The notes under the pieces: model-generated | Databases searched by the model: none | Told to the model about the DNA's origin: nothing | What the model saw: the letters and a program-made list of their open reading frames with translations, nothing else | Shown: positions 16,817-64,000 of the stretch, in pieces | How positions within the stretch are numbered: the first letter of the stretch is position 1 | Layout of the letters: each line of letters begins with the position of its first letter | Assembly (NCBI GenBank): GCA_950295325.1 | Contig: OX485807.1 | Span: 33,012,440-33,076,439, forward strand | DNA: 64,000 nt | Direction of reading: 5' to 3' | Origin: Polytrichum commune | Taxonomy: Eukaryota > Streptophyta > Polytrichopsida > Polytrichales > Polytrichaceae | Position numbers and translations under genes: made by a program

Positions 16817-17369
16817 GTTGTTTTAGAAGGCCTCCCAGTTATGTGGCCAACCCCATGACAGTATCCCTATTCAAGCTCACAGTGTTGCATAAATTTGGAT
16901 CCAGTGGGATGGATCAGTTCTAAATGACATGAGAGATGGAAATCTAAGATTCTCCAACTCCAACCACTGATGACAAACTGAACACTGCACAAATTTCCAT
17001 CATAAAATGAGATCATAAAGGCATCAGTGACCAGCATGGTGTCTATCATCTCTTCGCAGACCTATATTGTTACCTGTGAACCCTCCATTCAGGGAAGTGC
17101 AACATTTCTTCGCAGTAGAAGTGATGATGAGGTAAATCATTCATGGAAATCTTAGAATAGACATGTGATGACACATTCAAATATGTCCAACGTCCACCTC
17201 ATTTGAGCTCATAAGGCTTCTTCAAATTTGATGTGTGGAGCCCATAGAGTTTCAAATGTGGAAACTTGTGAAGAAAATGTGTAGATTACATTCTTATCTG
17301 TCATCAGAGGGTGCCAAATGTTGGTGGATGTCTACCAACAAGTTCGGTCTTCATGAACATTTACATCAA

Positions 17370-17950
17370 CCGTTCACATTTAATCCCATAGGCTGATAGC
17401 AGGTTGAGCAGAAAATAGTTTTTTATTAAAAATAAATTATAAAAAATAAATCCTAATTTTTTGGGAAATTAATGAGTCAAATGGCCTAAATGGAAGGAGA
17501 AATATTCCTAAATTTTTTAAATATTAGGAAATTTCTCAACACACAAATAATCTCTCATCCATGTCATTGGGATGGAACATATGATTGATTTGCCTTATGT
17601 CTCTTAGCCATGCTTGTAAGGTCTCAAACAATCTCTACTAAACATGACCACAAAGTAATAGAAAAGACTATTCACAATCCTAATTAACACAATAAGAAGG
17701 CTTAAGCTAAACTCTAAAGGTTAACATCGCGTACTTAGCTACCATAGACAAATGAAAAATAAATTTCATTAAATGAGTTGTATGTAGGATATTCTATGTG
17801 CCTAAATAAAAAATTATATTTATGCATATTTGCCTAATTTTTCATGAATGTAATTACGGACCATCTAAGCCCTTTTTTGAAACTACTTGATTAGTTGGCA
17901 TTTCTTACCCAACATGCTATCGATCTATGGTAGAGATTTTTAGAAAACGT
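17370..17950 (-). repeat. Dispersed repeat, copy 2 (inverted relative to 8060-8540)
   Basis: The reverse complement aligns with the 8.1-8.5 kb copy over several hundred bases. Aligned pairs include GATCGATAGCATGTTGGGTA against GTTGATAACATGTTTGGCA, and CCTTTAGAGTTTAGCTTAAG against CCTTGAGGGTTTAGGTTAAG. Divergence is high, so both insertions are old. Confidence 0.6.
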
Positions 17951-18566
17951 AGATGGGTCTTAAATGGTTACTTTTTCCAACTAGCCCACTTCGCCTTGTA
18001 TATGAAGCATGCAATTAATAAGAGATGGTTAGCATATCCAAATCAAGGTTGTAACATTTTTTCTCATGGTTTTTGGAACTCATACGAAGATCTCATATAT
18101 TACCGGCATGAAAATTCTCAAGCTCTTTAAATGGTCATACAAGAACTCCAGTTATGTTGATTATTGAACCTAGAATACTTAGCATATTATGAGCATGCAA
18201 CCCAATTTCTCATGAACACATGTCTTTTTGATATCATATCTTGAAGCTGCCCCAAACCACATCTAAGGGCTAGGGCATACATGTCAACACCAACAAGAAT
18301 TGGATAATTACTTGATGATTTTGTAATTGAATTGTTGACCATAGGGCATGCACACTCAAAAAAAAAAACTAACGGAATTAGTCTCCTTTTCTCACGTTGT
18401 CCCAAATTGTTCTATTGTATTCTTCTCTTCTTAATGGAAGATTTAAGATATGGTACTGCAGCTCAATAGGCACATTAAGAGGTTTTTCTAAGTTCTTGGA
18501 ACTTGTTATTGTTAGCCCTACAATAGCTATCTCCTTACAATAATCGGGTCAGTGCTTGTATGTGTG

Positions 18567-27900: not shown

Positions 27901-30900
27901 TATTACATGCATTCATGGTAAGAACCACACCTTCCTATCAACCTCTTTGCTTCATCAGAGAAGTTTCGAACAAACAAGTTCATTGCTGGCCAGTTTGTGT
28001 AACTTTTTGCATTATTTTGCCAGTGTTAACTTCTGTTGGGAGTGGTAAAGTTTATTAAAAGTTGATATGGAAGAATATGCTCATACTCACAGTTCCATTG
28101 CAACATCTGTTCTTACTCTTGTCTGCAGTCAGTCTAGTCAGCAGTGTTGGCACATTGTTTCACAGATACATATATCATTATGTTTAGTTGTTCATGCTTA
28201 TTTCAGAGGGTATCCATCATTGTACCTGTTGTTTTGTGCAGAACAACTGAACTCAAGTAATTATACTCTTTTGAATGCAGGTGTGTATGGCAGAGGGAGT
28301 AGTGTGCAGTCCAGACATAGTTGAACACATTGTGCAGGCTAGTGGGCATGATCTACGAAAACTCCTCATGCTACTCCAATTCTGGAGTCAGGGCTTACCT
28401 GTTGGTACAAAAAATTTGGACTGTGACCCAGTGCTGGAAATGAAACAGGTCAATAGAAACCGCATTCCTGATTTGATAAATTGTCTGTTGCAGTTAGATG
28501 GCTGTCCTCAGGTTTTTGCCACGAGAACACATGAATCTGATCAAAAGCCATTATTTGCTAGATGTAGTAGCAGAGCTCATGAAAGCCCCTGGGAGAGGTT
28601 GAATAGCACAAGTGAACGGGGGAACTCAAGGAAGAGTTCTTTGAGAGAAGGAGAATCAACCAGGAAGATAGAAGAGGGGGTCTTGGATCCAGAATGGCTG
28701 TTTGCATATGATTCTCAACACCGTGTACTACCTCTCCTGTTCTCAAGCAGTCAGCCTTGCAAGTCAACAATTCAGATTTCTGAGCATCTCAAAGGCATGG
28801 GAGAAAAAGCTATGGAATTGGCTGACATTACTGTGGCCACATGGGAGCGTCACAGATTTAATGAGCTTCAGGCTAAAGCCGAGGAGGCCACTCAAGCTCG
28901 CAAGGCTCTAAGGAAGCTGCAACTTGCTGCTCGGAAAGAGGCGAGTGCCAAATCAGGCATGACAAATGTAGTCACAGATGATGTACCAGAAGAGATTTTG
29001 TTAGAGAGAATTGCTAACAATAGTTTAAGCATTGGCGACAGATTAATTCTAAATGAGAGATTTAATGTCATTCAACCTCTTGGACATGGCAGTCATGTGT
29101 CCAGAGGCATTTTCAGTCCTACAATACTGAGTGAAGGGTTTGACACATTAAAAGGTGCACCTGCAGAGTTCATGAATAGGCAGGATGACAGGTTAGACAG
29201 CTGTTTTACAACAACAAACATTTCTGAGAGCGAACATAGGTTGCTATATAGAAACAGTATGCTCCAAAACCAGCCAGGTTTGTGGTCTCAAGTTGTCAAT
29301 GAGACAGAACAACCTGTAGACTTCTCCTTCACCAAGCTCATGCAGAGTTCTTATGATAGTCCTGCAGCTCAGACTGCCATAAAGGAATGTAATGAGGATA
29401 CGTGGTCACTGCTGCAAGGAGATTGTGAGGAGGATTCTCCATTTCCAGATCTGTCAATGGGTCACGATGCCGCCATTGATGAAATGTATCAATCAGGAAT
29501 GACAATGACTGCATTGCCAGTAAATGACAATGAGTGGATGAAATCTGTGCAGGAACCTACAGCATTTCTAACTCCGGATATGGACAGTGCTCCACATCTG
29601 CATGGAACTGGATTGGTGCTTCCTCAACGGCACTTTGGCCTTGAAGTTTGTGCCAACAGAGGTGTTTCACATCTCAAAAGGCTGGGTTTCCCTCCTCTCC
29701 AACAAAATGTACAATTAGTTGCAGCTGAGAATTCGTCTCTTCTCTTCCCTATATTTATTCCACAGGAAAGTCCTGTTGAACTAGGAGCAGTCGTTCCTAG
29801 GTGTACAGACACCTTGGCCAACAAAGATAGAGAACAACTGAATCAGAATCCCACTTCTGATCTTACTGTGTCTGATAATACCAAAGCCCTAGACAAAAAG
29901 GTTGAACCTCCCCCCAGTGTTGATACATTAGCAAGTAATTTAATGAAGCAGGTATGGGTGAAGTTACGAAAACTCAAGCTACAGGATCCTCTGACAGATG
30001 TAACACATGAGAATGTGCTACTGGAGAATGTTTTGCATGACCTTTCAACATGTGACATCCTATCTACCCGAAATGTGGCAACAGCACAGGTATTTTCCTT
30101 TCCACCCGCTTCTGCTATAGTGAAATCAAATGATTTTGTGAGGGATGCAAATCACATTCTTCCAAAACCTCAACCTTGTGAACAATTTTAATTCTTAATT
30201 TTGCATAGCGTCTTATCATGGATTCTTGTATCCATCCTTGGGATCTAAACTATGAGAGCTGTCAAATGAACTAACAAAAGAGGTGTATGTCCAATGTTTT
30301 GTAGGATTCACTTATATCTGTGCAGCTAGGCAATTTAGCGAATCAAGAACACAGTTATGGTGGTAGCAGAGACAGCTGTACAGAATCAGCTGCTTTGCTT
30401 GCACAGCTGTGGCTAAACCAAGCCCTGGATCAAATGACCACCTCAAGTAGCTTTTCATCCAAAGCTTGTCAAGTGCACCCTCCCCTTTCTCAGCAGGAAT
30501 CAAAGAGGTGACCACAGTAGCACTTTTAATTATTAATTGATTACATATATTTATGTATGAATTGGTTGACAAACATCTCAAAATGAGAATAAACAGAGTT
30601 CAATGTTGAGTTGCCAGTGTTGTGCTCAATGATTCCCTATGTTGAGCTAATCATTCATTCAACATTGATTGAGCTCATAATTCAAGTTTTTGGTCTTTTG
30701 AAGAAAGAAGTGTAGAAAGAAAGATGAAACCGCAGCCCTATGTTTAGTACGCAGTGGTTCAATGATGTAGTTTAATGTGATTAAATCAACGTGAAAATCA
30801 GTGTTGATGTAATATGAATTAGAGGTTTGTGATGAAGGTGCTCGAGCTGGTGCTCATTTGTCCCCTTCATCTCTGATTTTGACACTAAATTATTTATGTA

Positions 30901-37846: not shown

Positions 37847-39173
37847 TCATTGTAAAGGGACGATATGCAACATGACGGGGTAAACTACCTCAAGTTTGTC
37901 GAGAAGCTCGGCCGGCGTAGGGGCCGACACAACTAAGGTTCGTGCGTTGAATTTCAGGAAACCTTGAGCTTGCATGTTATCGAAGAGTGTGAGAAGCGAG
38001 TCGTAGTATCCGTCCACATTCAGCAGACCAATCTGCCACCAGAAAGTGTGAATGTCAGAAGATCTTCATAATTTCACATTTTTTCTCAAGTGCTCTAGTA
38101 GTTCTGCCTGCCGATGGATCAATCGCACACCAAAGAAGAGTCTGTAGTGGACTTACGGGCTTGTCGTGAATTCGGAGCTGAGACCAAGTGATGACCTCCA
38201 GTAGCTCCTCTAGAGTGCCAAAGCCACCTGTACAAAGAAATAAGCAGATTAAGACATCCCAACCAATCAACCTTAACTTGTAAACCATCCACATTTCGAC
38301 GAGCTTCGGCAATTGAAGCCTTCCAGCCACAACGCTGCACAGTATGCACTATGTAGCTAGGATTGGACAATGCCTTGAAGGTGCAAATGATCAAGCAACA
38401 TGTGGTCTGTAACATGAAAGGAGCTAAATTATTCAATCTTCGTGGCAAACCTGGGAGGGCGATGAAGGCTTCGGAGCGGCGTGCCATCTCCGCCTTGCGT
38501 TGATGCATGTCGTTGACGATGATCGATGCGCCAACTGTGTGGCCAGCGAGGTCGGGGCCGATGAGGGCCTTGGGGATGACGCCCACCACATCGCCTCCAG
38601 AATTGTGCACCATCTGTGCCACCTGCCCCATGAGCCCAATGTTCCCTCCTCCGTATACTAGGTTGATGTTGCGCTCTACCTGCAGGACAAACCACCGCAC
38701 AGTCCTAATTAATTGCCTCCGTCCACGCTTGTGCATCCAAACATCAGCAGATAGTGTCGAAGATTATTCACTGAGAAGTCATTCATAGACGTGTACATCT
38801 CAACCTGAAATCACTTATGGCTACCAAGGTCATGGTGGGGTATTTGAGGTTCGGACTTAATTGAATGTTTGATCCCGCCAATGCTGTCGATCATCATTAC
38901 AGCAGCTACGATCGGTTGAGAATAACGAGTTGATTAGAACCGATTTAATCTTGAAATTATGAGGATGCATACCAATTCTCGACCCAGGTCCAGAGCCACG
39001 TTGGAAAAGACGGTCCCATTGCCACTGCTACTTCCGCAGAACACACACACCCTCTTAAACCGCTTAGACGCCTTTGGGTTCGTGGCGAAGAAGGTGGAAC
39101 TAGTCGACTTCAATTGGGCAGAACCCTCCACTCTTAGGTGGAGTTCTTCCAGCTGCTGTTGCAACTTCCCCAT
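37847..39173 (-). CDS. LOG: LOG-type cytokinin riboside 5'-monophosphate phosphoribohydrolase
   Basis: LOG enzymes release active free-base cytokinins from nucleotide precursors in one step in the cytosol. Four exons on the minus strand join in frame to 228 residues: 39173-38973, 38679-38451, 38227-38157, 38032-37847 (TGA). Signature motifs: CGSSSG (46-51), [11 protein letters not shown] (75-85), [20 protein letters not shown], and the catalytic PGGFGTLEE (143-151), which is split by an intron after its first G base. [13 protein letters not shown] follows. The length fits the family (about 210-230 residues). The ATG at 39173 is the first in the open exon and gives a short N-terminal extension before [11 protein letters not shown]. 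The sequence shows plain LOG, not the longer bacterial PpnN type. Confidence 0.93.
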
Positions 39174-48561: not shown

Positions 48562-48753
48562 TATTGGGAAATGAGAGGAAGAAGCAAAGAGATCAGCGTA
48601 GCAAGCAAGAACACAATACACAATGGTTGCATACAATGGAGAGAGTGATTAGCTCCTCCCCTTATGCCTTTATTTATATGTATGGGTTAGGACCAGCGTA
48701 GACAACCCATATGGGACAATGTCACCGATGCAACCTAACACTATCTTGCAATA
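48562..48753 (-). repeat. Copia 3' LTR
   Basis: 192 bases, identical to 53963-54154. Outer border next to target duplication CGGAG; inner border next to the polypurine tract. The first four codons of the polyprotein's C-terminal tail and its stop fall inside this LTR (coding frame ends at 48741). Confidence 0.95.
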
Positions 48754-51700
48754 CTCCCACTTTGCGAGGTGGCATTGTACTCCAACCCCATTATTTTACT
48801 TAACCCCTCATGCCTATCTCTCGCTAAAGCCTTTGTTAGAATGTCCGCTACCATATATTGCGTTGGACAATATTCTAACTCTACAATTTTGTTTTCAATC
48901 TTTTCTCTAATGAAATGGTGTTGCACATCTATATGCTTCGACCTATCATGGTTGGTTGGGTTCTTAGCTAATGCCATAGAACCTTGGTTGTCGCACATGA
49001 TGGTCGTGGCCTCCTCTTGTACACAACCTACATCCTCCATTAATTGCCTTAGCCAAATGGCCTCCCTCGTGCATCGGTTCATGGCCATGTACTCCGCCTC
49101 CATTGTTGATTGTGCCACCGTTTGTTGCCGTTTGCTATTCCACGAAACGGCTCCCTCTCCGACAAAGAATACGTACCCGGACGTGGACCTACGGTTTTCC
49201 ACATCGCCGGCCCAATCCGCATCCGAATACCCTTTGACGTTAATATGATTGCCTCCGATGCGCAACTTCATATCTAAGGTGCCCTTCAAGTAGCGCATGA
49301 TCCGTTTGACCGCCATCCAATGCATCGGACCCGGTTTCGACATATAGCGGCTTACCACGCTTACCGCAAATGCGAGGTCCGGTCTTGTGGCCACCATTGC
49401 GTACATCAACGACCCCACCGCCTCTTGGTATGGAACGTCCTTCATTTCATGCAAATGCTCTTCGTGCTCGTCATCCGAAAGCTTCGGCAACGATGTCTTG
49501 GTGTCGAGCGGGGTTGCGATGGGCTTGCAATCACTCATGCCGAATCGCTCCAAAATGGTTTCGATGTAGCTTCGTTGATGCATGGTGATGGTGCGCGACC
49601 TCCTATCCCTCTCGAAATGAACGCCGAGGAAGAAATGCAACTCGCCGAGGTCGCTCATCTCGAATTCGCGCTCGAGGCTAGCCTTCAACTCGTTGATCAT
49701 GTCCACGTCGTCCGACAAAATCACGAGGTCGTCCACATATATGATGACAATCACAATGTAGTTGCAAGTTTGCAAAACATACAACGAGTGATCCGCATGG
49801 CTCCTCGTAAAGCCTTTGTTCACGAAGAACACGTGAATGCATTCGTACCATGCTCGTCCGGATTGCTTCAATCCGTAGAGCGTTTTCCTCAACTTGCATA
49901 CGAGATGCTCTCGGCCTTTTTGCACGAACCCCTCCGGTTGCTCTATGTAGATGACCACGTCCAATTCGCCGTTCAAGAATGCGGTCTTCACGTCCATTTG
50001 ATGTATCTCCAACCCCATGGCCGCTGCCAATGCGAGTATGACTCGAATGGTGTTGAATTTGGCCACCGGTGCAAAGGTTTCGCTAAAGTCTACGCCTTCC
50101 ACTTGCGAGCACCCCTTTGCTACTAACCTTGCTTTGAAACGAACCACCACGCCTCTCGCATCTTTTTTCGTTTTAAACACCCATTTGCACTTCACGGCCT
50201 TGCGGCCCTTCGGCAACGGAGTTAACTCCCACGTGCCGTTGGCAATGAGAGATTCGAACTCCTCTTGCATAGCCAACTCCCACTCGCTCGCATCACTCGA
50301 TTCAATGGCCTCTCTCACATTTCTAGGTTCCCCGATGGTTGCCATGTTTGCATGCTCTTTGTCTTGGGGCGGCGGAATGTGGTTCTTCCACCATTCCCCG
50401 AGCGGTTTGCGTGCCCTATCCGGATACCTAGAATGGCCCATGGTTTCATTGCTATGTTGCGGTGGTGGAGGTGCTTTGGTTGCGGGTTTCTTACCGTAGT
50501 CAAGTTTCGATGCCTCCGCGCTACGAGTGGATTTCGTGGCCGGAATGTTGGCCTCCGCATCCTCCTCCTCCTCGATGTCGAGCTCCTCCAAAGGATCGTC
50601 GCCGTTGGCCTCCGACTCGTCCACGTCCGATTTGGCGGATATGTCCACCTTGACCGCCGGTGTTTCGTCAACGCTCCCACTTGGACAATCCTCCAAATGC
50701 GTTTTGTCCTCGAAAAACACCACGTCCGGACTCTTGATGATTTTCTTCGTCTCCAAGCAAATGAGCCGGTACGCCTTCGTGCCTTCGCAATATCCGAGGA
50801 ACAAACACTTGACGCCCTTGGCGTCCAACTTCATCCGCCGTTGATCCGGCACCTTCGCATAAGCCACGCAACCGAACACGCGCATGTGGGACACGTGCGG
50901 CATCCTCCCGCTCCACGCTTCCTCGGGCGTCTTACCTTCCACGGCCTTCGTGGGACACCGGTTGCGCACGTACACCGCATTGCACACCGCCTCCGCCCAA
51001 AATTCGTGGCCGAGGCGTTGGGCATGAATCATGGACCGTGCCATCTCCACGATGGTGCGATTGGCCCGTTCGGCCACCCCGTTTTGTTGCGGCGTGTAAG
51101 GTGAAGAATTTTGGCGTGCGATGCCATGTTTGCTTAAAAAATCATCGAATGCCTTAGAAATGTATTCCCCGCCGTTATCCGTCCTAAGGACCTTCACTAC
51201 GTGTTCCGATTGCCTCTCCACCAAGGTTTTCCATTCTTTGAACCTTGCCAACACCTCGCTCTTGGATTTGAGCACATACACCCAAATCTTGCGCGAAAAA
51301 TCGTCAATGAAGGTGAGAAAATACCTTGCGCCTCCGATGGACGGCGTTTTCATCGGCCCGCATACGTCGGAATGCACGAGCTCCAAGATCTTGGTGGCGC
51401 GGGTGCCTCCCTCCGTGGGAAACGGACGCCTCGCTTGCTTGCCTTGGACGCATCCTTCGCACGCGAACGAATGCACGTCGTTCGGCACCGCTTGCACGTC
51501 CATGCCGCTCATCATGGTTTGGAGCGATTTCACGCTATTGGCGTTGAGATGCCCCAACCTCTTGTGCCAAAGCTCCAAAGGATGCGAGTTGGCCTCCGAA
51601 TGCGCCAAAGAACTCGTTTCGGCCTCATGCATCACCTTCGTGTCCAATTGGTACAAATTGGACTCCAACGACGCCACGGCCAACATCTCGCCGTTGCTCG

Positions 51701-52802
51701 CCCTCACCACGCATCCCAACGAGTTGAAATGCACTTTCAAACCCCGCGATATGAGTTTGCTCACCGAAAGCAAGTTGGAATGCAAGTCGGGCACGTGAAG
51801 CACGTCGTGCATTCTAATGCTCCGTGCACGACCCTTCACACGTGTTTCCACTAGGATGGAGCCTTTGCCTAGGACCTCTACGATGCCATTGTCACCCATA
51901 AACACTTTACGGCCCGAAATGGATTCGTACGTGTCGAAAAATTGCTTATGCGGTGTCATGTGGTTCGAGGCCCCCGAATCAACTATCCATCTAGTGGTGG
52001 AGGTTTTAGACGCCCCATCTCTCACAACAAATGCAAAATCATCGCTCGACCTCGCGACGTTGGCATTCACCTTGCGTTTCAATCGACAATTGCGAGCGAG
52101 GTGGCCCAACTTACCACAATTGTAGCACCTCGGGCCCTCACCTCGCCTCTCGTTGTTGTCGAACGTGCGAGGTTGGCGGGACAACATGGCCGCATCGTCT
52201 CCTTGAGGCTCCTTCTCCTTCCTCTTGGACACCTCGTGCATGAAACGTGCGGTGATGAAATCCAACGTGAGCTCCTTCATGGGGCGCGTCTCCAACGCCG
52301 TGATCAAATGGTCGAATGAAGGCGGTAGGCTATCGAGCAAGGTCATGACCACATCCTCGTCCTTCATTGGCACCTCCAAGCATGTGAGTTGGTCGGCGAG
52401 AGATTTTACCTTGTTGATGTGGTCGAGGATGTCGGCGCCTTCGTCCATCTTGATGGTGAAAAACTTGCGCCTAATGAACAAGATGTTGGACAAGCTTTTG
52501 GTTTCATGGATGTTGCACAACGTCTTCCACGCTTCCGCCGGTCCTTTACACCCTTTGATGTGCGCCAACTCCTTGTCCACCAAGCTCGTGGCAATGATGG
52601 CGAAGGCTTTCTTGCATCGACGCTCGTACGCCTTCTTCACCTCGTCGCTCGCCGTGGACGGTGGCGGCAACTCCGAACCCTTCACGATCTCCCAAAGGTC
52701 TTTGGTGGACATCACCATCTCCAACTTGAACTTGTAGAGGTTGAAGTTGTCGCCGCCGAACTTGTCGAGCGTGATGTGGCCATCACCCTCACTAGAAGCC
52801 AT
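48741..52802 (-). CDS. Copia gag-pol polyprotein
   Basis: Single open frame of about 1353 residues from the ATG at 52802 (MASSEGDGH). An upstream in-frame ATG at 52832 would add 10 residues. Order, numbered from the upstream ATG: gag, zinc knuckle CYNCGKLGHLARNC (about 236-249), protease DSGASNHM (285-292), GAG-pre-integrase LWHKRLGHL and zinc finger end CEGCVQGK, integrase with catalytic D489, D552 and E588 (HSDVCGPM, RTDNGGEY, GVAERAN), reverse transcriptase with KCKWVFK, QMDVKTAFLNGEL and YVDD (1032-1035), and RNase H with YSDADWAGD and TMEAEYMA. Protease-integrase-RT order is Copia type. No stop or frameshift was seen. Codons are clearly GC-richer than the flanking DNA and host genes, as common for mobile elements. 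Confidence 0.96.
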   Translation of the reverse strand: MASSEGDGHITLDKFGGDNFNLYKFKLEMVMSTKDLWEIVKGSELPPPSTASDEVKKAYERRCKKAFAIIATSLVDKELAHIKGCKGPAEAWKTLCNIHETKSLSNILFIRRKFFTIKMDEGADILDHINKVKSLADQLTCLEVPMKDEDVVMTLLDSLPPSFDHLITALETRPMKELTLDFITARFMHEVSKRKEKEPQGDDAAMLSRQPRTFDNNERRGEGPRCYNCGKLGHLARNCRLKRKVNANVARSSDDFAFVVRDGASKTSTTRWIVDSGASNHMTPHKQFFDTYESISGRKVFMGDNGIVEVLGKGSILVETRVKGRARSIRMHDVLHVPDLHSNLLSVSKLISRGLKVHFNSLGCVVRASNGEMLAVASLESNLYQLDTKVMHEAETSSLAHSEANSHPLELWHKRLGHLNANSVKSLQTMMSGMDVQAVPNDVHSFACEGCVQGKQARRPFPTEGGTRATKILELVHSDVCGPMKTPSIGGARYFLTFIDDFSRKIWVYVLKSKSEVLARFKEWKTLVERQSEHVVKVLRTDNGGEYISKAFDDFLSKHGIARQNSSPYTPQQNGVAERANRTIVEMARSMIHAQRLGHEFWAEAVCNAVYVRNRCPTKAVEGKTPEEAWSGRMPHVSHMRVFGCVAYAKVPDQRRMKLDAKGVKCLFLGYCEGTKAYRLICLETKKIIKSPDVVFFEDKTHLEDCPSGSVDETPAVKVDISAKSDVDESEANGDDPLEELDIEEEEDAEANIPATKSTRSAEASKLDYGKKPATKAPPPPQHSNETMGHSRYPDRARKPLGEWWKNHIPPPQDKEHANMATIGEPRNVREAIESSDASEWELAMQEEFESLIANGTWELTPLPKGRKAVKCKWVFKTKKDARGVVVRFKARLVAKGCSQVEGVDFSETFAPVAKFNTIRVILALAAAMGLEIHQMDVKTAFLNGELDVVIYIEQPEGFVQKGREHLVCKLRKTLYGLKQSGRAWYECIHVFFVNKGFTRSHADHSLYVLQTCNYIVIVIIYVDDLVILSDDVDMINELKASLEREFEMSDLGELHFFLGVHFERDRRSRTITMHQRSYIETILERFGMSDCKPIATPLDTKTSLPKLSDDEHEEHLHEMKDVPYQEAVGSLMYAMVATRPDLAFAVSVVSRYMSKPGPMHWMAVKRIMRYLKGTLDMKLRIGGNHINVKGYSDADWAGDVENRRSTSGYVFFVGEGAVSWNSKRQQTVAQSTMEAEYMAMNRCTREAIWLRQLMEDVGCVQEEATTIMCDNQGSMALAKNPTNHDRSKHIDVQHHFIREKIENKIVELEYCPTQYMVADILTKALARDRHEGLSKIMGLEYNATSQSGSIAR

Positions 52803-52920
52803 TTTGCAACTCAAATGCAAGCTCCCACTCACTTAATGTACCACGAGGGCTAAAAAACCCTCGAAAATTTTAGAATTTGATTTTAAACTTTGGAATTAAT
52901 TCAAGGTTCTCACACACTCA

Positions 52921-53735
52921 AGTCAGCACCTTTCCACTCCAAAGCTAAGCCAAATGACTACATAACCATCAAAAAGCCAAAACTAAGCCTTTTGGAACTC
53001 AAAACACCTCAAAGTTAGTTTTGAATGGATGGATCTCTCAAGTCAGCACCTTTCCACTCCAAAACTAAGCCAAATAACTACATAACCATCAAAAAACCAC
53101 AACTAAGCTTTTTGGAACTCAAAACACCTCAAAGTTAGTCTTGAATGGATGGATCTCTCAAGTCAGCACCTTTCCATTCCAAAACTAAGCCAAATAACTA
53201 CATAACCATCAAAAAGCCACAACTAAGCCTTTTGGAACTCAAAACACCTCAAAGTTAGCATAGAATGGATGGATCTCTCAAGTCAGCACCTTTCCACTCC
53301 AAAACTAAGCTTAATAACTACATAACCATCAAAAAGCCACACCTAAGCCTTTTGGAACTCAAAACACCTCAAAGTAAGCATAGAATGGATGGATCTCTCA
53401 AGTCAGCACCTTTCCACTCCAAAACTAAGCTTAATACCTAAATAACCATCAAAAAGCCAAAACTAAGCCTTTTGGAACTCAAAACACCTCAAAGTTAGTC
53501 TTGAATGGATGGATCTCTCAAGTCAGCACCTTTCCACTCCAAAACTAAGCTTAATAACTACATAACCATCAAAAAGCCACACCTAAGCCTTTTGGAACTC
53601 AAAACACCTCAAAGTTAGCATAGAATGGATGGATCTCTCAAGTCAGCACCTTTCCACTCCAAAACTAAGCTTAATAACTACATAACCGTCAAAAAGCCAC
53701 ACCTAAGCCTTTTGGAACTCAAAACACCTCAAACC
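52921..53735 (-). repeat. 120-bp tandem array in the Copia leader (about 6.8 copies)
   Basis: Near-identical units start at 52921, 53041, 53161, 53281, 53401, 53521 and 53641, exactly 120 bases apart. Each has CAGCACCTTTCCACTCCAAA, ACATAACC, CCTTTTGGAACTCAAAAC and ATGGATGGATCTCTC. Copies differ by a few substitutions (for example GTTAGTCTTGAA versus GTTAGCATAGAA) and no indels. The array sits between the primer-binding site and gag, so it would lie in the 5' untranslated part of the genomic RNA. Confidence 0.95.
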
Positions 53736-53948
53736 CTCAAAATGCGAATCGATCTCACATAAACATTCAAGATACAATGAACCTCAACCTAACGTGTCCT
53801 CCACGCTGGTCCAAGTGTCCAAGAATGCTCCAAGGCGCTCCAAAACTCCAAAACTCCACCAAAAGCTTGAAACACCTCCAAATCGCCTCCGATCAGATCC
53901 GGCTCTCTCCTACCTCTTCCTAAGTTGATCTCTAAGCTCTAAAGCAAA

Positions 53949-53962
53949 GTGGGCCCATAACC
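53949..53962 (-). other. Copia primer-binding site, half-tRNA type
   Basis: On the plus strand GTGGGCCCATAACC abuts the LTR. This equals the anticodon stem-loop of plant initiator tRNA-Met as I remember it, not its 3' end (whose PBS would read TGGTATCAGAGC). A primer made from the 5' half of the tRNA, cut in the anticodon loop, would pair here, as described for Drosophila copia. Confidence 0.65.
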
Positions 53963-54154
53963 TATTGGGAAATGAGAGGAAGAAGCAAAGAGATCAGCGT
54001 AGCAAGCAAGAACACAATACACAATGGTTGCATACAATGGAGAGAGTGATTAGCTCCTCCCCTTATGCCTTTATTTATATGTATGGGTTAGGACCAGCGT
54101 AGACAACCCATATGGGACAATGTCACCGATGCAACCTAACACTATCTTGCAATA
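53963..54154 (-). repeat. Copia 5' LTR
   Basis: 192 bases, identical to the 3' LTR at 48562-48753. It would carry the element promoter. On the minus strand CATATAAATAAAGGC inside it is a possible TATA region. Confidence 0.95.
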
Positions 54155-54159
54155 CGGAG

Positions 54160-54760
54160 AGCAGAAAATGGAGACCAGAATCCAAATATAGACATTTTCG
54201 CTAAATTTAGCAGTTTGGAATATATTTCAGAAATATTCCAAGAATATTATTATTTTTGGCCAATTTTTGAGACCTATAACCGTGGACCGAGGGGGTTTAA
54301 AGATTGAGAAATTCCTATTTTTTGCTTATTACTGTGCTCTCACTTTCCAGTAATAAACACTATATTCGTTAATCGGAGACTTTTGAAAGTCTTAAAATAA
54401 AATATGCCCATAGTTTGGGATGCCAATATTGTGGGCATATGGAATGTTGGGAACATCAAGAACATGACAATTTAAAAATTCGCACATAAAGAATATTCCT
54501 AATACTAAAAATAGAAAATTGCAATTATAATGAAAACGTGAACTCCATGTGGAAAATAACAAGCGAATCTAAAAAACAAATGGTTTATGTCATTATAGAG
54601 TTTGGGGTGCGCATCCCATAAGTAAGGTTCTTATGGTTTTGGATGGCACATCCCAAACGTATACCACAATGGAGTGTGACAAGTCTACTAAGTCTATTAA
54701 AAACCAAGACTACTAAGCACTAATGTTTTTTCCCGCCGTTAACTTTCACCTATGTTATGT
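54160..54760. other. Non-coding DNA between Copia and the DUF7869-type gene
   Basis: AT-rich, no gene. Short inverted matches of GTTTGGGATG (about 54413, and reversed at about 54650) suggest a small worn repeat. The 3' untranslated part of the minus-strand gene probably lies here. Confidence 0.4.
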
Positions 54761-57700
54761 TTACCCATCTCCATCTTCCGCTTCATATCCATTCTCGGCG
54801 TCATTTTCCGCAGCTGCAATACGTGCCAAGTTGTCTTTGGCAAAATCTATATGTTTTTGGGGGATGGTCATTGCTTCTGTGTTGGAACCTTTGTGCGGCT
54901 TCCAAGCACAAAGTATAGTATCCGTGTTTATCCAAACTGGTGTGTACGCTGAGTCCACTGTCCACTTAAAATTCTTTTTGGTGTCCCAACCTAAATAAAT
55001 GCGGAGCACGTTCTGGTCTTTAGTGCTTGGACGACAATATTCCACCTCAATTTGACGAAAGTTGGGACTAGTTCGAACAAAATTGGGTGAAGACAATGCT
55101 TTTACCAACCAAATTGGCTTGGGATGCTCCTCATCCCCTGCTCGTACGAGGACCAAATACCCTTCATGGCAATCAACACCTACACGAAACGACGGTGCCG
55201 GTCGATTGCGGGCAGGGCCAACGTAATGCTCGTCCATTGCGAACTCTTCACGAACGTCTCCATTGCTGAAAAACATAGTATTGGACTCGACAACCGTCAA
55301 ACGACTTTGTGGCCAAAATCCTTGTGTCAAAGTCGTACGGGTGTCGCCACCAAGTGTCATCAAGGCTGAGTGAATGCGATCCCAATACGCGATCAACGGT
55401 TCATGGGTATCTCTAACACGTCTTGTGATGTCCTCCTCGCACAACTCTTTCCAATATTCAATGAATCCAGATATGCCTTTGATGATTTCCGGCCCATTCC
55501 TCATGGATTCGGGTTTGCAAGGCTTTGGTTCCCCATCCGGGACCAAACATTTCCCATCATTGTCTTGACGCCATACGAGTATACCATCATCCGGGCCCCA
55601 ATTAGGAGATGTGCACAAAAGCTTGAATTGCATGGCCGGGAGACCATCGTCCCTCATATAAAATCGGAATTGTTGTGCTTTGGTATGCCCCACCAAACGG
55701 TCCCCTCCCTTCAACATGTATGGCTTGATGAAGGCCTTGAAATCTGGTACTTCCTCAATCAAGTGCGGAATTACTGGCATATGGTCCAAATCCATATACG
55801 ATTTCATAAGAAGAGGTATGGTTGGAAAATCTTCTTCATGCAACTTTATGCTCCACCGTCCGAATGATGCATCAATGTCGTCGTGTGTATGTCCCACCAT
55901 CAAGAAAGACACAAACACCTCCTTGAAGATTCCTTTCGCCACGAGCAATGACCAAAAACAAAATACGTATCGACATTTGTTGTCCTTCGCACAATTATCA
56001 AGTTGAACGTGGAGAGTTGGAGGCAATGGTTTTACACAAATGGGTTCTCCGGGTGGTTCTGGCAATGACGACATACAAACCTCCTTCCCCGCAAGCACTG
56101 CCTCATAAAGGGATGTGGTTCCACAACCATCAAAAAGTGCACGGGAAGAATGTACCGGTGGCTTCTCAAGATCGCGCAACAGTTTTACAAATGAACCCAC
56201 TGTGTGGTTAGCATCCCCAGGGTAAAAATCCAAACCATAATGGGCATACTTTACGTCCCCATGGCCGTGGGCAATCATACCTGGAAAAAACAAACGATGC
56301 GTGACCAAAATAATCAAAAAACCACTAAACGGATGTATGATTTTGGACATTTGCCAAACACACCCAAGAAAATTGGATAGACTTTAAACACGTAGTTGTG
56401 ATTTCATACAAACCTGTGACAGCTACGGGCAACTTGAAGAGACCATCCGTAGCCTTTATTTTACGTGCATAACAAGGGCATGCGGTTTTGGCGTGGTCCA
56501 TTTTATCATGGATGACTGTTAGAACCTCTATGGGCCTCATTATGGATAGAGCACGATTCTTATAGTAATCTTGACGGTGTGCCTCTTGATTGTTGACATG
56601 CTCAATGGGATGGGCGTCTCGAAGACCTTTGTATTTTTCACACGTCGTACATCTAGCGAACTTGTCCCCGAGTCTTTTAAGAATGTATTCCGCAAACTGC
56701 TGGTTTTTAATCACACTCAACTTGGACAAAGAAATGGGCCCACATCCCGCTATGCGACCCACTTCATTGATGTCCGTTAAGATGTTCTTCCATTTTGTGC
56801 CCGTGGGCAACACCATTTGAACAACCTTCTCCCCTGACGACAATGTCCTCGTCTTGTGGGGCATTGCATCGGCCAATGGCACTATGATGGTGGATAGTGT
56901 CGCAGACGCTTGCAGTGTAGCCTCCCTAGGTTTCTTTGTGCCCGAGTTGCCATGAAATCGAGAGCGGCGACCCAACGATGAATACTTTCGAAACCTATAA
57001 AAGTCAGCCTTGGAGACGGCGTGGATGGTATACCACGCTGTACAACACACATCAACATTCTCAAGTGTCACCACCTTATACCCATGGATATCAAGGTGCA
57101 AATTTCTGTGGACCTCGAGTTTCTTAGCCGACCTCATACGAAAATCCGCAAGCCACATCTCTTGACGCAGAGATCTAATTTTCTCCCGCGGGAAAAATTG
57201 GCAACATTTCCTCGCGCAACAATCCTTGCCGGACACTAGACGGATAGATTCGTCCCCCAAAAGCCGATCCCGTCAACGCTCCTTATCTCCGCGAGGCACA
57301 CGGTTTGAATCATATCTACGGAGGCCTTTGCGAGGACGTGTTGTGGCCAACAAAGCTAATTGTGTTTGCTTATGCCGCCGCTCATGATCCCACAAACTCA
57401 CTTCCTCATGTAGAACTTGACGAAGCGGCCATCGATGCAAGGAAAATCTCCATGTCACCGGGACCTCTACCGGAAGCAAAGAGTTCAAGATGCACACGCC
57501 AACATCATCGAGATCTAGGGCGTTGGCATCGACACAATCACGGGGATTGAAGTTTCTACATATGCCATCTGCCACCGGGACACCAACCTCGTTGAGTAGA
57601 ACGACATCAAGGCCAACCCATTGCTCCCTCCCGAAACCGGCACACAACGGAATGTCATCGTGGTCATCTCCGGAATGCAGAGATTGTTCGTGGACTTCCA

Positions 57701-57851
57701 AAGATTCATGCGAGGATGTATCCACAAACACCCCCCTCACGTTTGGCACACCATTACTATCTGCCAACGGGGAAGACAGTTCACATTCAGCATCGGATGA
57801 CGATGCATACGTCGACAACTCCAATGAACTATCACCCACATGCAACGCCAT
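54761..57851 (-). pseudogene. Transposon-like gene of the DUF7869 type, one in-frame TGA
   Basis: Two exons on the minus strand: 57851-56414 and 56280-54761 (TAA), joined in frame by a GT-AG intron, 985 residues. Features: an acidic, poorly conserved N-terminus; CCARKCCQFF then REKIRSLRQEMW, a block common in these proteins; CTTCEKYKG and CPCYARK cysteine pairs that could bind zinc; and a C-terminal domain with HVQLDNCAKDNKCRYVF and MVGHTHDDIDASFGRWS, which I recall as DUF7869. This family occurs in many copies in plants, algae and fungi and seems tied to mobile DNA; its reaction is not known to me. Codon 193 (57275-57273) is TGA while the frame is open on both sides, so I call it a pseudogene. 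CGA to TGA by deamination would explain it. The start ATG at 57851 is uncertain, since an acceptor-like TTGCAG lies just upstream at 57895. Confidence 0.72.
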
Positions 57852-58172
57852 ACCGCCTAGACCAACCACTAGGAAATGATCAACCCAACCACCACTGCAA
57901 TGCATACAAGAGAGGATAGAATATATGTGGAGATAAATGGCCCAAAATTGACAAACAAATTTTGGTGCACCATTGGAGAACCTCACGCACAAAGACGAAC
58001 GCGCATCCCAAAAAAACGTTTTAAGCATACGTCTAGGTTGTACACTAATGTAAACAATACATGGACAAAGAGGAGAACAATCGTTAGTCGTCCAGGAGGG
58101 CCCTGCTGTTCGGACCAACGCCTGTCCCCATACAACCGACGACGAAATCAGAAATCCGAGAACGCCACATGC

Positions 58173-59234
58173 ATTTACGAACGCGCGTTCGTAACCTCAG
58201 TAACTTCTCCATGTGCATCCGGCGGCCTTCGAGATCCCTCATCTGAGAGTACCCTCAGGAATATCGGTTTTGTAGGTCAAAGTACCATGTTGACTTAGGA
58301 ACCTGCGCGATATACTATCACAAGAGAACACTTGTCCATAAGCACAAAAGTAGTAAATCTGCAGATGATGCCTGAATCAACTCCAACAATGTTTTGAACA
58401 CTGAGCACCTCCATATTGTGAATTTGATTATGTTGACTTTTGCGTACCCACCCATTTACGAACGGACATTCGTAAATGGGTGCGACCCCGTGTTCACATC
58501 CTTCACGGACGAGCGATGAGCATATTTTTCTTGCTAATTTGTGTTCGTAAATTACTGCCATACTGATGTGCATGAATGAAGATGTGTTGCTGGATGCGTA
58601 GACAATAATGACATGTATTTACGAACGCACGTTTGTAAATTCCCGACCATCAGGTACCAATAGATACGGGTCAAATAAGTATGTATGATCCTCGAAGGCA
58701 TATTTACGAACGCACGTTCGTAAATGACTGTCATGAATTAAGTGCATGTGACTAACCATATGAGTAGCTCAATCCAGAACATGCTCTCATGTGGGATTTA
58801 CGAACGCACGTTCGTAAATTACCGACCATCAGGTACCAATAGACACGGGTCAAATATGTATGTATGAACCTCGAAGGCATATTCGTAAATAAATGCCATG
58901 GATGATGTGCATGTGACTATCCATGAGTAGCTCAATCCAAAACATGATCTCCTGTGGGATTTACGAACGCACGTTCGTAAAATTACCGACCATCAGGTAC
59001 CAATAGATACGGGTCAAATATGTATGTATGATCCTCGAAGGCATATTTACGAACGCACGTTCATAAATAACTGACATGGATTACGTGCATGTGACTATCC
59101 ATGAGTAGCTCAATCCAAAACATGCTCTCAGGTGGGATTTACGAACGCATGTTCGTAAATCCTTGCCATGTACAGGTCCGAATCGTTTGTCTAAACCTGA
59201 AGCTCCTCATCTTTACGAACGTGCGTTCGTAAAG
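58173..59234. repeat. Palindrome array 1 (9 copies)
   Basis: Nine copies of a 24-base palindrome with arms ATTTACGAACG and CGTTCGTAAAT around two variable bases start at 58173, 58454, 58617, 58702, 58796, 58959, 59045, 59137 and 59211. Half-sites remain near 58546 and 58881. Central pairs are CG, GA, CA (six copies) and TG. The copy at 59211 has C and G at its outer ends, still pairing. Every arm mismatch that keeps the alignment, apart from outer-end changes, is a CpG transition. The array lies upstream of the DUF7869-type gene. Confidence 0.95.
58611..59163. repeat. Tandem repeat of about 163-179 bp carrying two palindromes per unit
   Basis: Three and a part units. Each unit is palindrome, CCGACCATCAGGTACCAATA with about 40 further bases to CTCGAAGGCATA, a second palindrome, then about 70 bases containing GTGCATGTGACTA and GAGTAGCTCAATCC. 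The palindromes opening the units start at 58617, 58796, 58959 and 59137. In the second unit the inner palindrome has lost its left arm. Confidence 0.9.
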
Positions 59235-59282
59235 TTCCGGTATTTACGGCGGTATATGTGGTAGGTACAGCCTGTACTGTAC

Positions 59283-59490
59283 CTGGGTGGTGTAGGGTTG
59301 GCGCACACCAAATGGCTTGAGCGCGTTCGGTGAGGTCTGTAGAGCGCACACTTGCATGTGCCGCTGAAAAGACCTTTGTTGTGGGGGGAAGAGCTTTAAG
59401 TACTTCACCCCGCTGGTTCAAAATCCCTTGGATGCTCTTTAAAAAGCGGATTCCCGCCGCCTTCTTTGACCTAACAATCTCCCATTCCAT
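59283..59490 (-). other. Open frame of unknown status (possible upstream exon)
   Basis: An ATG at 59490 opens about 70 codons (MEWEIVRSKKAAGIRFLK...) in GC-rich sequence unlike its AT-rich flanks, with a donor-like CCCAG/GTACAG near 59283. It could be a first exon of the minus-strand gene, but the phase does not join simply to the next acceptor at 57894, and I do not recognise it. Confidence 0.2.
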
Positions 59491-59737
59491 CCATGTGGAA
59501 TTATATAAATAGCACTGTCATGTATGGAACATGCCTTGCATGCACGCCAACATATTGAAAATATATATATCGGTTGCACACCTTAGTTGTGACCAAGGTC
59601 TCATCGAAATATATATATATACATAATGTCTAAATATGGAGATGGTTAACATTGAATATTTAATGATTTGCGACTAAGGTATGAAGTCCAAGTTAATTGA
59701 CAATTGATGCCTAATAAAGTTATGAATGTCGAAGTCA

Positions 59738-59814
59738 TAGATATATATATATATATATCTATCTATCTATATATCTATACATATATACACATATACACAC
59801 ACACACACACAATG
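59738..59814. repeat. Compound TA/TCTA/CA microsatellite
   Basis: Runs of TA, then CTAT, then CA pairs follow one another without interruption. A shorter TA run lies near 59612-59625. Confidence 0.9.
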
Positions 59815-60789
59815 AGGTCAGAGTGGCTAAGAACATGTTGCGGACGCCCCTAAAATTATAGGTATCATATGTTTCACATCAAAAAATGACCGTAATATGG
59901 TCACCAAGTGCATGAATACAACTAAAAAATCGGGTTAATCCATAATGGCTTGCACTAGGGTAGATTGAGGACACTATGAACTAATTATACCTAATAATAT
60001 ATGTAAGTTAGGTCTTCTTTCAAATGGTATCTAGGTGTGAAAATAAGGAATTAAAATGGCATGAGTAGGAAGGATTAATCAATTTGTAATGCTGCATAGT
60101 ATGATAGCGTAATGATCATTGAGACTTGAAACCATACTAGCTACCGTAACGTTGAATCATAGTTACAATTATTATGTGTTTGATGTCCTATTGGAAATTG
60201 AATTTTCGTCCACTTGTTGTAAGGGTACAGATACACATTGGTTAAATGTTTATTAGATCATTGGTGATATTTATAGTTGAATGCATTGTTCGATTGTTAG
60301 TTTAAGTTGACACATGATTAAATGAGTTGAGGTCCTATTGGAAATAGACTTTTAGGGTTTGGGGAAATGCACTATTAATTTGGAATGGTGCATACAATAG
60401 TATGTACTTACAATTAATATATGTTTTGCATCCTATGAGAAGGATGTGCATCATCATAGCTTAAAGTGTTGATATAAATTGAAGTCTTAAGACATGCATG
60501 TTATTATAATAAGATCGTGGATTATGTGATGAAATTTCACTCAGAACTATTAAGGTGAAAGAGGGAATATTTGAAATTTCACTTATCACCTAAACCAAAG
60601 TTTTATCTCAAATCTATTAATTTGGAATGTGAAAATGACAATTGGCATCATTATCAATTATTATAGTTGTTATGAACGGAATTAAGCATTCTCCATCCAA
60701 CCAACATTGGTAGACCAATTTGACCTGCCCTCAGAAAACAACATGGCCACATATAAGAAAGGTTGGTAAGATAAAAATATGCAGGGATG

Positions 60790-60852
60790 TAGGGTTTGCG
60801 GTTAGGGTTTAGGGTTAGGGTTTGGGGGTAGGGTTTAGGGGTTTAGGGTTTG
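60790..60852 (+). repeat. Interstitial telomere-like repeats (TTTAGGG type)
   Basis: Several TTTAGGG, TTAGGG and GGGTTT units in a row, with irregular spacing and extra G residues. TTTAGGG is the plant telomere unit. The block is short and degenerate. Confidence 0.8.
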
Positions 60853-61440
60853 TGAAAGTTGTGTATGTGGTATTTGGGTTTAAGTTTTAGATTGTTACTA
60901 GGATACATTACACACACAAACAATATTGACTCCTCAAAAACCCTTGTAATTGCACTAACTTCATTCATCGCAAGCTCGTAGTTGATGCTAGCAAAATAGT
61001 TGACCACTCCAGAAATGCATTAGTTCAAGCTAACACCTAATATTGGAACTTGAATTGACATCCTATCGTATAGCAACTCTGCGCAATCTCATATTATTAT
61101 GAATTCATTTTTGCATGTAATATTTATTTGAGGAACCATCGAATTAATTGAAAGATATCTAGCTCTTACATAAACTATATTTAAAAACACCATATACATA
61201 TCTTTGGGGGTGGATTCTACATTGACAACCTAGGAAATGACATGCATTGTTTATTACGAATTAACTGAGTATATTTTTCTAAAATATGTTTACAAGGAAT
61301 CCAAATGTAGAGGTACTAAGGAAATAAAACGAGTAAAATTCATGTATTTGAACTAAGCTTTTCAAGATAATGCCCTAAATGCGTCCATTACATATAAATA
61401 TGTCAAAGCATGAGAATAACATGAAGGGTTGCAATATACA

Positions 61441-61527
61441 ACCATCTCCCATCTCCCATCGCATCCCATCCCATCCCATCCCTTCCCATCACCTCCCATA
61501 CCATCCCATCCCATCTCCCTCCCAGCC
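61441..61527. repeat. CATCC-rich simple repeat
   Basis: Many units of CATCC, CCATCT and CATCCC in a row on the plus strand; pyrimidine-rich. It may be part of the promoter or leader of the downstream plus-strand gene. Confidence 0.85.
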
Positions 61528-61689
61528 CTAGCCAGTGGAGTTGTGCCACGTGGCAGGTGCTGGGAAACCCTAGCGGCGCACCTACCTCCCCGTGCCCCTT
61601 CCTCTTCTCCTCATTTGTCATTTCGAGGAGAGGAGCGGAGCGCTTAGAGAGCGAAACTCTTGCTATTTTTAGTCTTGAAGTTTTAAATT

Positions 61690-62045
61690 AGTTTTGTTGC
61701 AAGTTTTGAGAGATTTCAGATTGAGAGCTTGTGTGAAAGCTTTTGAGTTTGTGAAAGCTTTCATTGTGAAAGCTTTCATTGTGAAAGCTTGTGAGTTTGT
61801 GAAAGCTTTCAGTGTGAGAGTTTGTGAGTTTCAAAAGCTTGAGAGCTTGAGTAGGAAAGCTTCAGAGTTTCGGATTGAGAGCTTGAGGGTGATCTTTAGA
61901 AGCTTGAGAGTTTAAGGAAGCTTCAGAGTTGAAGCTTGAGAGTTTAGGGAAGCTTCAGAAGTGAAGCTTGAGAGTTTAGGGAAGCTTGAGAGTTAAGGGT
62001 TTGCTTAAGAGTTCAGAAGCTTGAGAGCTACAAGCTTGTGAGTTT
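61690..62045 (+). repeat. Degenerate short tandem repeats built on AAGCTT
   Basis: Repeated GTGAAAGCTTTCATT and later GAAGCTTGAGAGTTTAGGG then AAGCTTCAGAG units, roughly 15 and 35 bases long. The frame through it gives repeated KAF and KAS-type peptides, but stop codons and low complexity argue against a protein. Confidence 0.8.
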
Positions 62046-62515
62046 TGTGTACATGGGAGTATACTAGGGTTTGTATATAAGCTGTGAAGGCTTGAGGTCT
62101 GCATTATAGAGTTATTTGAGTGTGCATTTGAAAGGCAATTGAGTGTGCAGTTGTGAGGATTTCTGGGATTTTCAGAAAGAGAAGAAGCAGGGTTTGAAGT
62201 CTGCAGCATTTCAATGTAATTTGTTATCCTTTCCAACTCCTCTCACATTCTGAAAATGTTGCTTCTTGAATTCAATTTGTTTTGTTACATGCAATGTGAA
62301 TTATCACTTTCTTCTTCATGTTTCATTCTACATCTCATTCTGCATCTCAATTGCTTTATGATTCAAGATTTGCATCATTCTGACCAAAATTTTGCAGGCA
62401 CGGCTGCAAGAAGAGTAGCTAATAAGTCAGTTATATACATATATATGTATATGTATATGTATTCGTATATATACGAATACATATATGTATGGACAGGGGA
62501 TCCCAAAACCATCAC

Positions 62516-63149
62516 ATTTACGAACGCTCGTTCGTAAATGGACATACACTGCATACCCACCTCCATTTACGAACGCTCGTTCGTAAATGGACATACACTG
62601 CATACCGAACCTCCATTTACGAACGTGCGTTCGTAAATACGTACTCCACGTTCTTTGAAATGATCTATATTTACGAACGCACGTTCGTAAATATACTCAA
62701 AATATCACTCAGATGGAACCTTAACTTTAATATGAACCTCTACGAATATCTAAAGAACAAATATAAAATTGCGAACACCAATAAAACAAATCACATGTAC
62801 TTACGAAATATAAATCAACCAAATGTCCGACAAGATAGACCAAATGGACATACGTACGAACGCACGTTCGTAAATAAAACCAAATCTATAAAACCTATAT
62901 CTTTTACGAACGATCGTTCGTAAAAATAACCAAATATATTACAAATACATTCATGACAAGTAGTCTCTTTGATCTTCATATCTTTTACGAACGCTTGTTC
63001 GTAAATTCAATACTAAAAATTTATATGATCTTGCAACCCCTCATTTACGAACGAACGTTCGTAAATATAATTACATCAATTGCAAAGACGCATTAACACT
63101 GCGTAATATGTGGGATATGCATGTCATTTACGAACGTTCGTTCGTAAAG
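62516..63149. repeat. Palindrome array 2 (9 copies)
   Basis: Same palindrome as in 58173-59234. Copies start at 62516, 62565, 62615, 62669, 62852, 62902, 62983, 63043 and 63126. Central pairs are CT, CT, TG, CA, CA, AT, CT, AA and TT. Apart from the first three copies (about 50-base period), the sequences between copies are unrelated, unlike array 1. The copy at 62902 has T and A at its outer ends, a paired change. The array ends 29 bases before the ATG of the next gene. Confidence 0.95.
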
Positions 63150-63177
63150 TCACTAATTGTTTATATTCTGTTGCAGA

Positions 63178-64000
63178 TGGCAAGATCAAGCAGAAGCGCC
63201 ATTGAGATGTTCGCGGTGAAGGTCGATGGCCTCCCAGAGTCGGTGTTAGACGATAACGGCAACGACAACTATGTCCCCAAGGAAGACTTCATGGGGGAGT
63301 GGACGGCCTCTTCTGCATGCGCTTCACCTACGAGCTGGAGACAAGACCGGACCAACCCGAACAGTGGGTTCAAATGAAGACGTGGGAGATAGAGTCCATA
63401 GAGGCCCAGGGGGAGTATGTAATTCTGGACATGAAGAACAAAAAGGATCATATCAACCTCTTGTTGCATTTCCAGAAAAATACCTTCTCCTACCAATACG
63501 CCACCAATAACGTAGCGGAAGATGCCAAGCACTCCGACCTGGAGGGCCTCTTCTCCAAATATGCGTTGAGCCCATACTGGACGGCAAGGAAATTGACCGC
63601 CCTGGCATTGAACATCTCCAAATACAACAGTGTGGTCATTGAGGCAAACAAGAAGAAGAAGAGCCCCAAGAAACCATCCACATCAGGGGCAGGAGGATCT
63701 AGAAGTGCACCCAGGCCTGTGCCTTCCGCTAGCAGGGCGACGGAGGGCCCCAGTAGACACTCCACGCCATCGAAGAGGACAAGGGAGGAGATGGAGAAAT
63801 CGGGAGTAACAGAGACCGCGGAGGTGACCTCGCCTGTCGTAATGCCCACCCCCTTGAAAAAGGGCGAGAACCCTGACGCTGTGAAGGCCACGAGGATCCT
63901 TCGAGACTTCAACAACTACTCGAAGGATTGCTGGCCCATGGGACGCCACTTCACATTCAACGTGGCCTGCTTCAAGTGCGAGATGTCCCCCAACAAATGG
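63178..64000 (+). CDS. Unrecognised GC-rich gene, probably frameshifted, runs off the window
   Basis: I do not recognise this protein. An ATG at 63178 sits directly after an acceptor-like TTCTGTTGCAG, so it may be the first coding part of a later exon. The first frame (MARSSRSAIEMFAVKVDG...) is sensible to about 63297, then becomes arginine/serine-rich and stops at 63377. Another frame is open from about 63297 to the window end: an order-prone part with aromatic and charged residues (FCMRFTYELE, ALSPYWTARKLTALALN), then a basic KKKKSPKKP stretch, then a Pro/Ser/Thr-rich linker, then RHFTFNVACFKC with a possible zinc pair. One base missing from the G run at 63293-63297 would join them. Strong GC codon bias, like the Copia and DUF7869-type genes, suggests mobile-element origin (inference). 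Confidence 0.5.

Follow-up and report, generated by a model that had tools for sequence, protein, structure and literature searches.

The moss Polytrichum commune (assembly GCA_950295325.1) was analysed over a stretch of 64,000 nucleotides of contig OX485807.1 (C5 in our coordinates), here called the window. The window contains two arrays of a 24-base palindrome. Mapping against genes and transposons, a check proposed when the arrays were first noticed, places both of them in one large DNA transposon, of which the window holds the left part. The transposon carries a left gene and a right gene, both interrupted in this copy. Other copies in the genome are lettered A to F. The features of the transposon in the window, apart from the palindromes, are:

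54352-54355, no strand: left copy of the 4-bp target duplication AATA (right copy at 74495-74498, outside the window)
54356-64000, + strand: DNA transposon, left part (from copy comparison)
54356-54390, + strand: left terminal inverted repeat, AACACTATATTCG... (from the shared left end and an inverted match at the right end)
54761-58196, - strand: left gene, three stop-to-stop open reading frames (ORFs) with DUF7869, interrupted in this copy (from Pfam scan and copy comparison)
63177-64000, + strand: first coding exon of the right gene, which is interrupted in this copy and continues with further exons beyond the window (from ORFs and comparison with copy D)

The transposon and its palindromes

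We identified 18 matches to ATTTACGAACG-NN-CGTTCGTAAAT in the window at up to 3 mismatches, and none in 100 dinucleotide shuffles. All 18 have 0-2 mismatches over the 22 fixed bases, and the two central bases are variable. The palindromes form array 1 (nine, 58173-59234) and array 2 (nine, 62516-63149), the latter in a predicted 5′ untranslated region (UTR) intron of the right gene. At the same threshold no further palindrome occurs in the window outside the two arrays. Both the count and the confinement to two arrays of nine agree with the original prediction. The pattern scan located the palindromes as follows:

58173-58196, no strand: palindrome, array 1
58454-58477, no strand: palindrome, array 1
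58617-58640, no strand: palindrome, array 1
58702-58725, no strand: palindrome, array 1
58796-58819, no strand: palindrome, array 1
58959-58982, no strand: palindrome, array 1
59045-59068, no strand: palindrome, array 1
59137-59160, no strand: palindrome, array 1
59211-59234, no strand: palindrome, array 1
62516-62539, no strand: palindrome, array 2
62565-62588, no strand: palindrome, array 2
62615-62638, no strand: palindrome, array 2
62669-62692, no strand: palindrome, array 2
62852-62875, no strand: palindrome, array 2
62902-62925, no strand: palindrome, array 2
62983-63006, no strand: palindrome, array 2
63043-63066, no strand: palindrome, array 2
63126-63149, no strand: palindrome, array 2

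The DNA between array 2 units had been described as unrelated, which holds for most units and fails for the first two, identical over 43 bp. The related claim that the arrays did not arise by simple tandem growth fits the unrelated spacers of array 2; array 1 is built partly of longer tandem units, and tandem growth thus happened there. Across the genome (408 Mb, 64 contigs) the exact palindrome occurs 1234 times and a reversed control pattern 0 times. The motif is thus common beyond this locus, and the absence elsewhere that would have counted against the original prediction did not come true.

Copy comparison revealed one long repeat common to the window and three other array-bearing places. 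Its left end, AACACTATATTCGTTAATCGGAGACTTTT at window position 54356, is identical in copies A, C, D, E and F, and its right end, CCGAATATAGTGTT, falls outside the window by ~10.5 kb, at coordinate 74494 (C5:33086933). Aligned as inverted repeats and counted from CACTA, the two ends of copy D agree at 26 of 35 positions. A perfect 4-bp target duplication and AACACTA termini are present in all five copies with both ends read (AATA in the window, ATGT in D, ATAA in E, CTAA in F and TACT in one copy of the TCG family described below), a count that leaves out copies A, B and C and the elements of the sister families GTG and GCG, whose ends were not both read. Searching the GTG and GCG elements for the AACACTA terminus did not locate their ends. 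The exact left-terminal 26-mer occurs 213 times in the genome (112 + 101), and two pieces of the transposon gave 234 and 298 first-look candidates genome-wide, of which 40 each were scored.

Copy D spans 16.1 kb (C5:44632885-44648988). The window copy has an extra insert of ~4.1 kb in its right gene (64277-68395, outside the window) that is absent from copy D. A telomere-like run of TTTAGGG type is found at 60790-60853, inside the transposon between arrays 1 and 2. Copy A has, beside or within it, three occurrences of a ~975-bp repeat, two direct and one inverted (L001 and L002 joined, 14761-18202; C1:2276760-2280201).

The left gene carries DUF7869 (PF25273, E 4e-40; Pfam scan) and is broken in the window copy by one stop and a 37-bp length difference. 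A first-look search of the genome gave 1491 DUF7869 candidates, and all 150 that were scored exceed the cut-off; none of the 14 control genomes gave a match. In four out of four families the left genes share the motifs HDKMDxxKT, DNCxKDNK and GHTH[DE]D[IV]D. We infer from their sequence that these may be D-D-D/E transposase motifs, and the left-gene product is probably a transposase. Pfam scans of the left-gene ORFs show no MULE family, and a scan of viral contigs found no relatives of the left protein. Sequence searches against solved structures yielded, for the DUF7869 ORF and the first right-gene ORF, nothing beyond matches of E 0.66 and 0.82, and a single-sequence structure model of the DUF7869 part has a low mean pLDDT (predicted local distance difference test score) of 32.7.

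The right gene of copy D comprises four predicted coding exons with GT-AG introns, which join into 1607 codons with a single terminal stop (the splice sites being predictions from sequence). Its last exon encodes a NIF phosphatase-like domain (PF03031, E 2.9e-16, above cut-off), and homologous NIF-like ends are present in three other families (43.7%, 36% and 37% identity). No other Pfam match in the right gene reaches its curated cut-off. The third ORF has a below-cut-off match of coiled-coil type (HAUS-augmin3, E 8e-4), which would suit a dimer but is no proof of one. DUF1985 and DUF287 have no match at E up to 1 in the four right-gene ORFs, the NIF-like ORF has none among solved structures by sequence at E up to 0.01, and a single-sequence structure model of a right-gene piece has a low mean pLDDT (41.6). 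In the window copy the gene is broken by a 25-bp deletion and the ~4.1-kb insert.

Copy D contains 30 palindromes (up to 6 mismatches of 22). Ten form array 1, upstream of the left gene, and the first of these overlaps the end of one stop-to-stop ORF. Nine lie in the predicted 5′ UTR intron of the right gene, and two, two and five lie in its predicted introns 1, 2 and 3. Between the left end and the first palindrome lie 3.9 kb, and 2.4 kb separate the end of the last one from the right end. Of the 29 palindromes of the window copy, 18 lie inside the window and 11 beyond its end.

In copy D and the window copy, the 12 flanking bases on each side carry ~0-0.4 bits of information and the two central bases 0.3-0.6 bits, against a core near 2 bits; the sites were chosen by similarity, which builds in some of the core conservation but not the contrast with the flanks. 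Satellite DNA is ruled out by this near-zero flank information, array 1 alone being partly tandem; the conserved-flank satellite named at the outset as a counter-outcome was not what we found. A mobile mini-palindrome, which had also been suggested, is ruled out too, since the sites occupy fixed and equal places in copies of a large transposon.

Arms are also kept apart from their surroundings in L043, a diverged relative in which 315 bases of exon 1 are 78% identical to copy D. The array intron of L043 has 113 of 149 aligned palindrome positions identical versus 241 of 418 flanking positions (58%; p 8e-5), and its seven palindromes agree with the consensus at 93% of arm positions. Both L043 and L044 appear as lone sites in the genome listing and actually lie within diverged arrays. 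Among close copies the signal of arm conservation is weak. Copies A-C differ from copy D at 19 of 968 arm positions and, in non-coding DNA outside the arms, at 157 of 4014 (p 0.0025, from comparisons that are not independent), and CpG decay in the window copy stands at 2/85 in palindromes, 10/115 in other non-coding sequence and 25/500 in coding sequence (p 0.07, palindromes versus non-coding).

Sister families with other palindromes

We searched four loci upstream of other DUF7869 genes for perfect palindromes, blind to the first motif. At the equivalent place, L016 and L017 (99.6% alike) carry an array of CCCACGGGTG-NN-CACCCGTGGG, L018 an array of CCCACGGGCG-NN-CGCCCGTGGG and L019 an array of GTTTGGGTCG-NN-CGACCCAAAC. 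The sister palindromes differ in sequence, always with a 10+2+10 geometry. On their far sides, the sister elements have a second array and more sites between homologous right-gene exons. GTG and GCG elements also have one site between two left-gene ORFs; the left-gene intron of ACG (the class of copy D) and TCG elements has none.

Sites with up to 4 mismatches of 20 were assigned to the best of five classes, and 114 of 121 over four elements fell into the element's own class (ACG 30/30, TCG 43/43, GTG 19/19 and GCG 22/29, with approximate limits for the last two elements). The seven off-class sites of the GCG element are nearer to the similar GTG class. Twelve base-shuffled elements contained no class sites.

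Thirteen further loci upstream of DUF7869 genes were sampled. Left-gene homology is present in nine, and all nine carry a palindrome class: four a fifth class, TTTACGGACG-NN-CGTCCGTAAA, two TCG, two GCG and one GTG. L036 and L042 have a single perfect site each; L035, L040 and L041 lack both the left-gene homology and any repeated palindrome. Going by the class count, a single common ancestor of the five classes would mean no fewer than four changes. Exact matches in the genome number 9231 for TCG, 1147 for the TTTACGGACG class, 644 for GTG and 177 for GCG, with 0 for each reversed control.

Two loci show further arrangements. L039, which lacks left-gene homology, has three sites of GGGTGAGGCA-CA-TGCCTCACCC (2636-2841), also 10+2+10, upstream of a more distant DUF7869 gene; we did not count this palindrome as a class. 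The 25 ACG-class sites of L023 (483-1805; C1:644500-646500), counted with up to 6 mismatches, stand in a 160-bp tandem array that does not resemble the one in the window. A left transposon end is found ~5.4 kb away, at C1:639070.

The right gene diverges faster than the left gene between families. ACG and TCG left genes are 58% identical in one part, 75% over 106 residues and 65% over the longer DUF7869 ORF, whereas the right genes are 34, 36, 28 and 44% identical in four parts. Against GTG and GCG, identity is 39% and 51-52% for the left gene, and 21-27% where alignable and 36-37% in the NIF-like end for the right gene.

Proposed function and known systems

A symmetric site of fixed spacing, whose sequence is switched wholesale while its geometry and places are kept, is what would be expected of a dimeric, sequence-specific protein encoded by the element. 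We propose, at evenly balanced confidence, that the palindromes are family-specific sites of such a protein, probably the right-gene product, and that they probably serve anti-silencing. A dimer would bind two 10-bp half-sites across the two free central bases. The right gene is the likelier source of the binder because it diverges faster. Since the sites are mostly non-coding (upstream of both genes and in introns), the protein would mark the element's own family and, by analogy with VANDAL/VANC, the element's own copies alone would lose host silencing. Among the functions originally suggested, protein-binding sites are the one that the sequence evidence favours.

Several observations weigh against this proposal. 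Two of the 30 copy D palindromes lie in coding sequence. Between the window copy and copy D, arms differ about as much as other non-coding sequence does (11/462, 2.4%, versus 63/2258, 2.8%; p 0.75). Domain and structure-sequence searches found no known DNA-binding domain in the right gene, and the right-gene comparison covers four families only.

The proposal draws on the VANDAL transposons of Arabidopsis, as described in passages of two papers (PMC5735166, PMC10398659). In that account, VANC21 binds YAGTATTAY, a 9-base sequence arrayed in one orientation, in introns and in non-coding DNA that is intergenic or terminal; the motifs differ in the sequences that VANC6 affects; and VANC motifs occur as fast-changing tandem repeats in introns and upstream regions (PMC5735166). 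The VANA transposase is described as far more conserved than VANC, whose domains are named DUF1985 or DUF287 (PMC5735166). The present system shares with VANDAL/VANC its arrays of short motifs in non-coding parts, the family specificity of these motifs and a second protein that outpaces the (here probable) transposase in divergence. It differs in that neither the MULE transposase (VANA) nor the VANC domain was found by Pfam, that its sites are 22-bp palindromes and that its candidate protein has a NIF phosphatase-like end. We reject VANDAL membership because no MULE or VANC domain was found; the system may nevertheless work like VANDAL/VANC without being a member, with the same layout and, as far as Pfam shows, unlike proteins.

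CACTA (En/Spm) elements make target duplications of 3 bp and have CACTA as their outermost bases, and the TnpA sites of En/Spm are subterminal. The termini found here contain CACTA, but the duplication is 4 bp, the terminus is AACAC and the copy D sites are not subterminal. Membership in CACTA, defined in the passage cited by 5′-CAC..GTG-3′ ends and a 3-bp duplication (PMC12730594), is ruled out by the 4-bp duplication and AACACTA terminus. TnpA of En/Spm is also described as reversing silencing of its own element (PMC10398659), as proposed here.

The transposon features fit the Sola superfamily, described in the passages cited as having 4-bp target duplications and some members >15 kb, and as named from moss (PMC10741241, PMC3627910). 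Duplication, size and the D-D-D/E-like motifs are alike, going by published descriptions; the passages on Sola describe no palindrome system (PMC10741241, PMC3627910). Literature searches found no paper on DUF7869, and those on Sola in moss, VANC, palindromes and anti-silencing, 4-bp duplications, TnpA and later anti-silencing work returned nothing that describes this system by title or start of abstract; both are weak negatives, as most subscription papers and bioRxiv lay outside the coverage.

An element protein might instead bind the palindromes for ordinary transcription control or transposition (compare TnpA of maize Spm), which we consider unlikely though a serious contender. In its favour, both genes have an array upstream of them, and the TCG element has three weak TCG sites (4 mismatches) no more than ~1 kb from its right end. 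TnpA is described as both activating Spm and accompanying its demethylation (PMC10398659), so the two roles can overlap. Copy D sites, however, come no closer than 3.9 kb and 2.4 kb to the ends, unlike subterminal sites, and many sites lie deep in introns in four families. An origin by mere tandem-repeat growth of a palindromic unit, with no function, is disfavoured and in our view very improbable: regular tandem repeats do occur in array 1, in the TCG arrays and at L023, but scattered sites have unrelated flanks, geometry was kept while sequence changed, sites recur in equivalent introns and L043 keeps arms where it does not keep flanks.

The palindromes could also act in RNA, as intron hairpins or long-range pairs that affect splicing or small RNAs. 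This would agree with the 18 of 30 copy D sites in predicted right-gene introns and with arm complementarity being maintained as sequence changes between families. Yet 10 of the 30 sites precede the left gene, where they may belong to its 5′ UTR, and the left-gene intron of ACG and TCG elements has no site, although GTG and GCG elements have one between left ORFs. Moreover, the innermost base pair, which could not form in a 2-base loop, is invariant in 30/30 copy D sites (in the window copy, G11 29/29 and C14 27/29). These points leave an RNA role with a small chance, and the hairpin units of the original prediction become less likely.

Sequence-specific anti-silencing has been worked out for Arabidopsis VANDALs. 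If the proposed anti-silencing function is correct, the same layout built from unrelated proteins would imply repeated evolution of this counter-defence. With confidence a little short of even, we suggest that the moss elements hold a second, independently evolved anti-silencing system, in a non-MULE transposon, in which a dimeric NIF-ended protein and a private palindrome would have changed together several times, giving five classes with 10+2+10 kept. A single genome with five palindrome classes that share one geometry and total >12,000 exact sites offers a natural data set on how protein and site specificity change together, and the protein-site pairs would be candidates for targeted removal of DNA methylation.

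Other features of the window

The window also contains a young copia-type long terminal repeat retrotransposon (48562-54155), which has 193-bp repeats that are 100% identical and an open gag-pol on the minus strand. A 120-bp unit is repeated in it near 52797-53816, and the element ends 196 bp before the target duplication of the DNA transposon. Elsewhere, an ORF at 28275-30191 has a weak, below-cut-off match to an RFC1-type AAA-lid, and an ORF at 38119-38736 encodes a LOG-type lysine decarboxylase domain.

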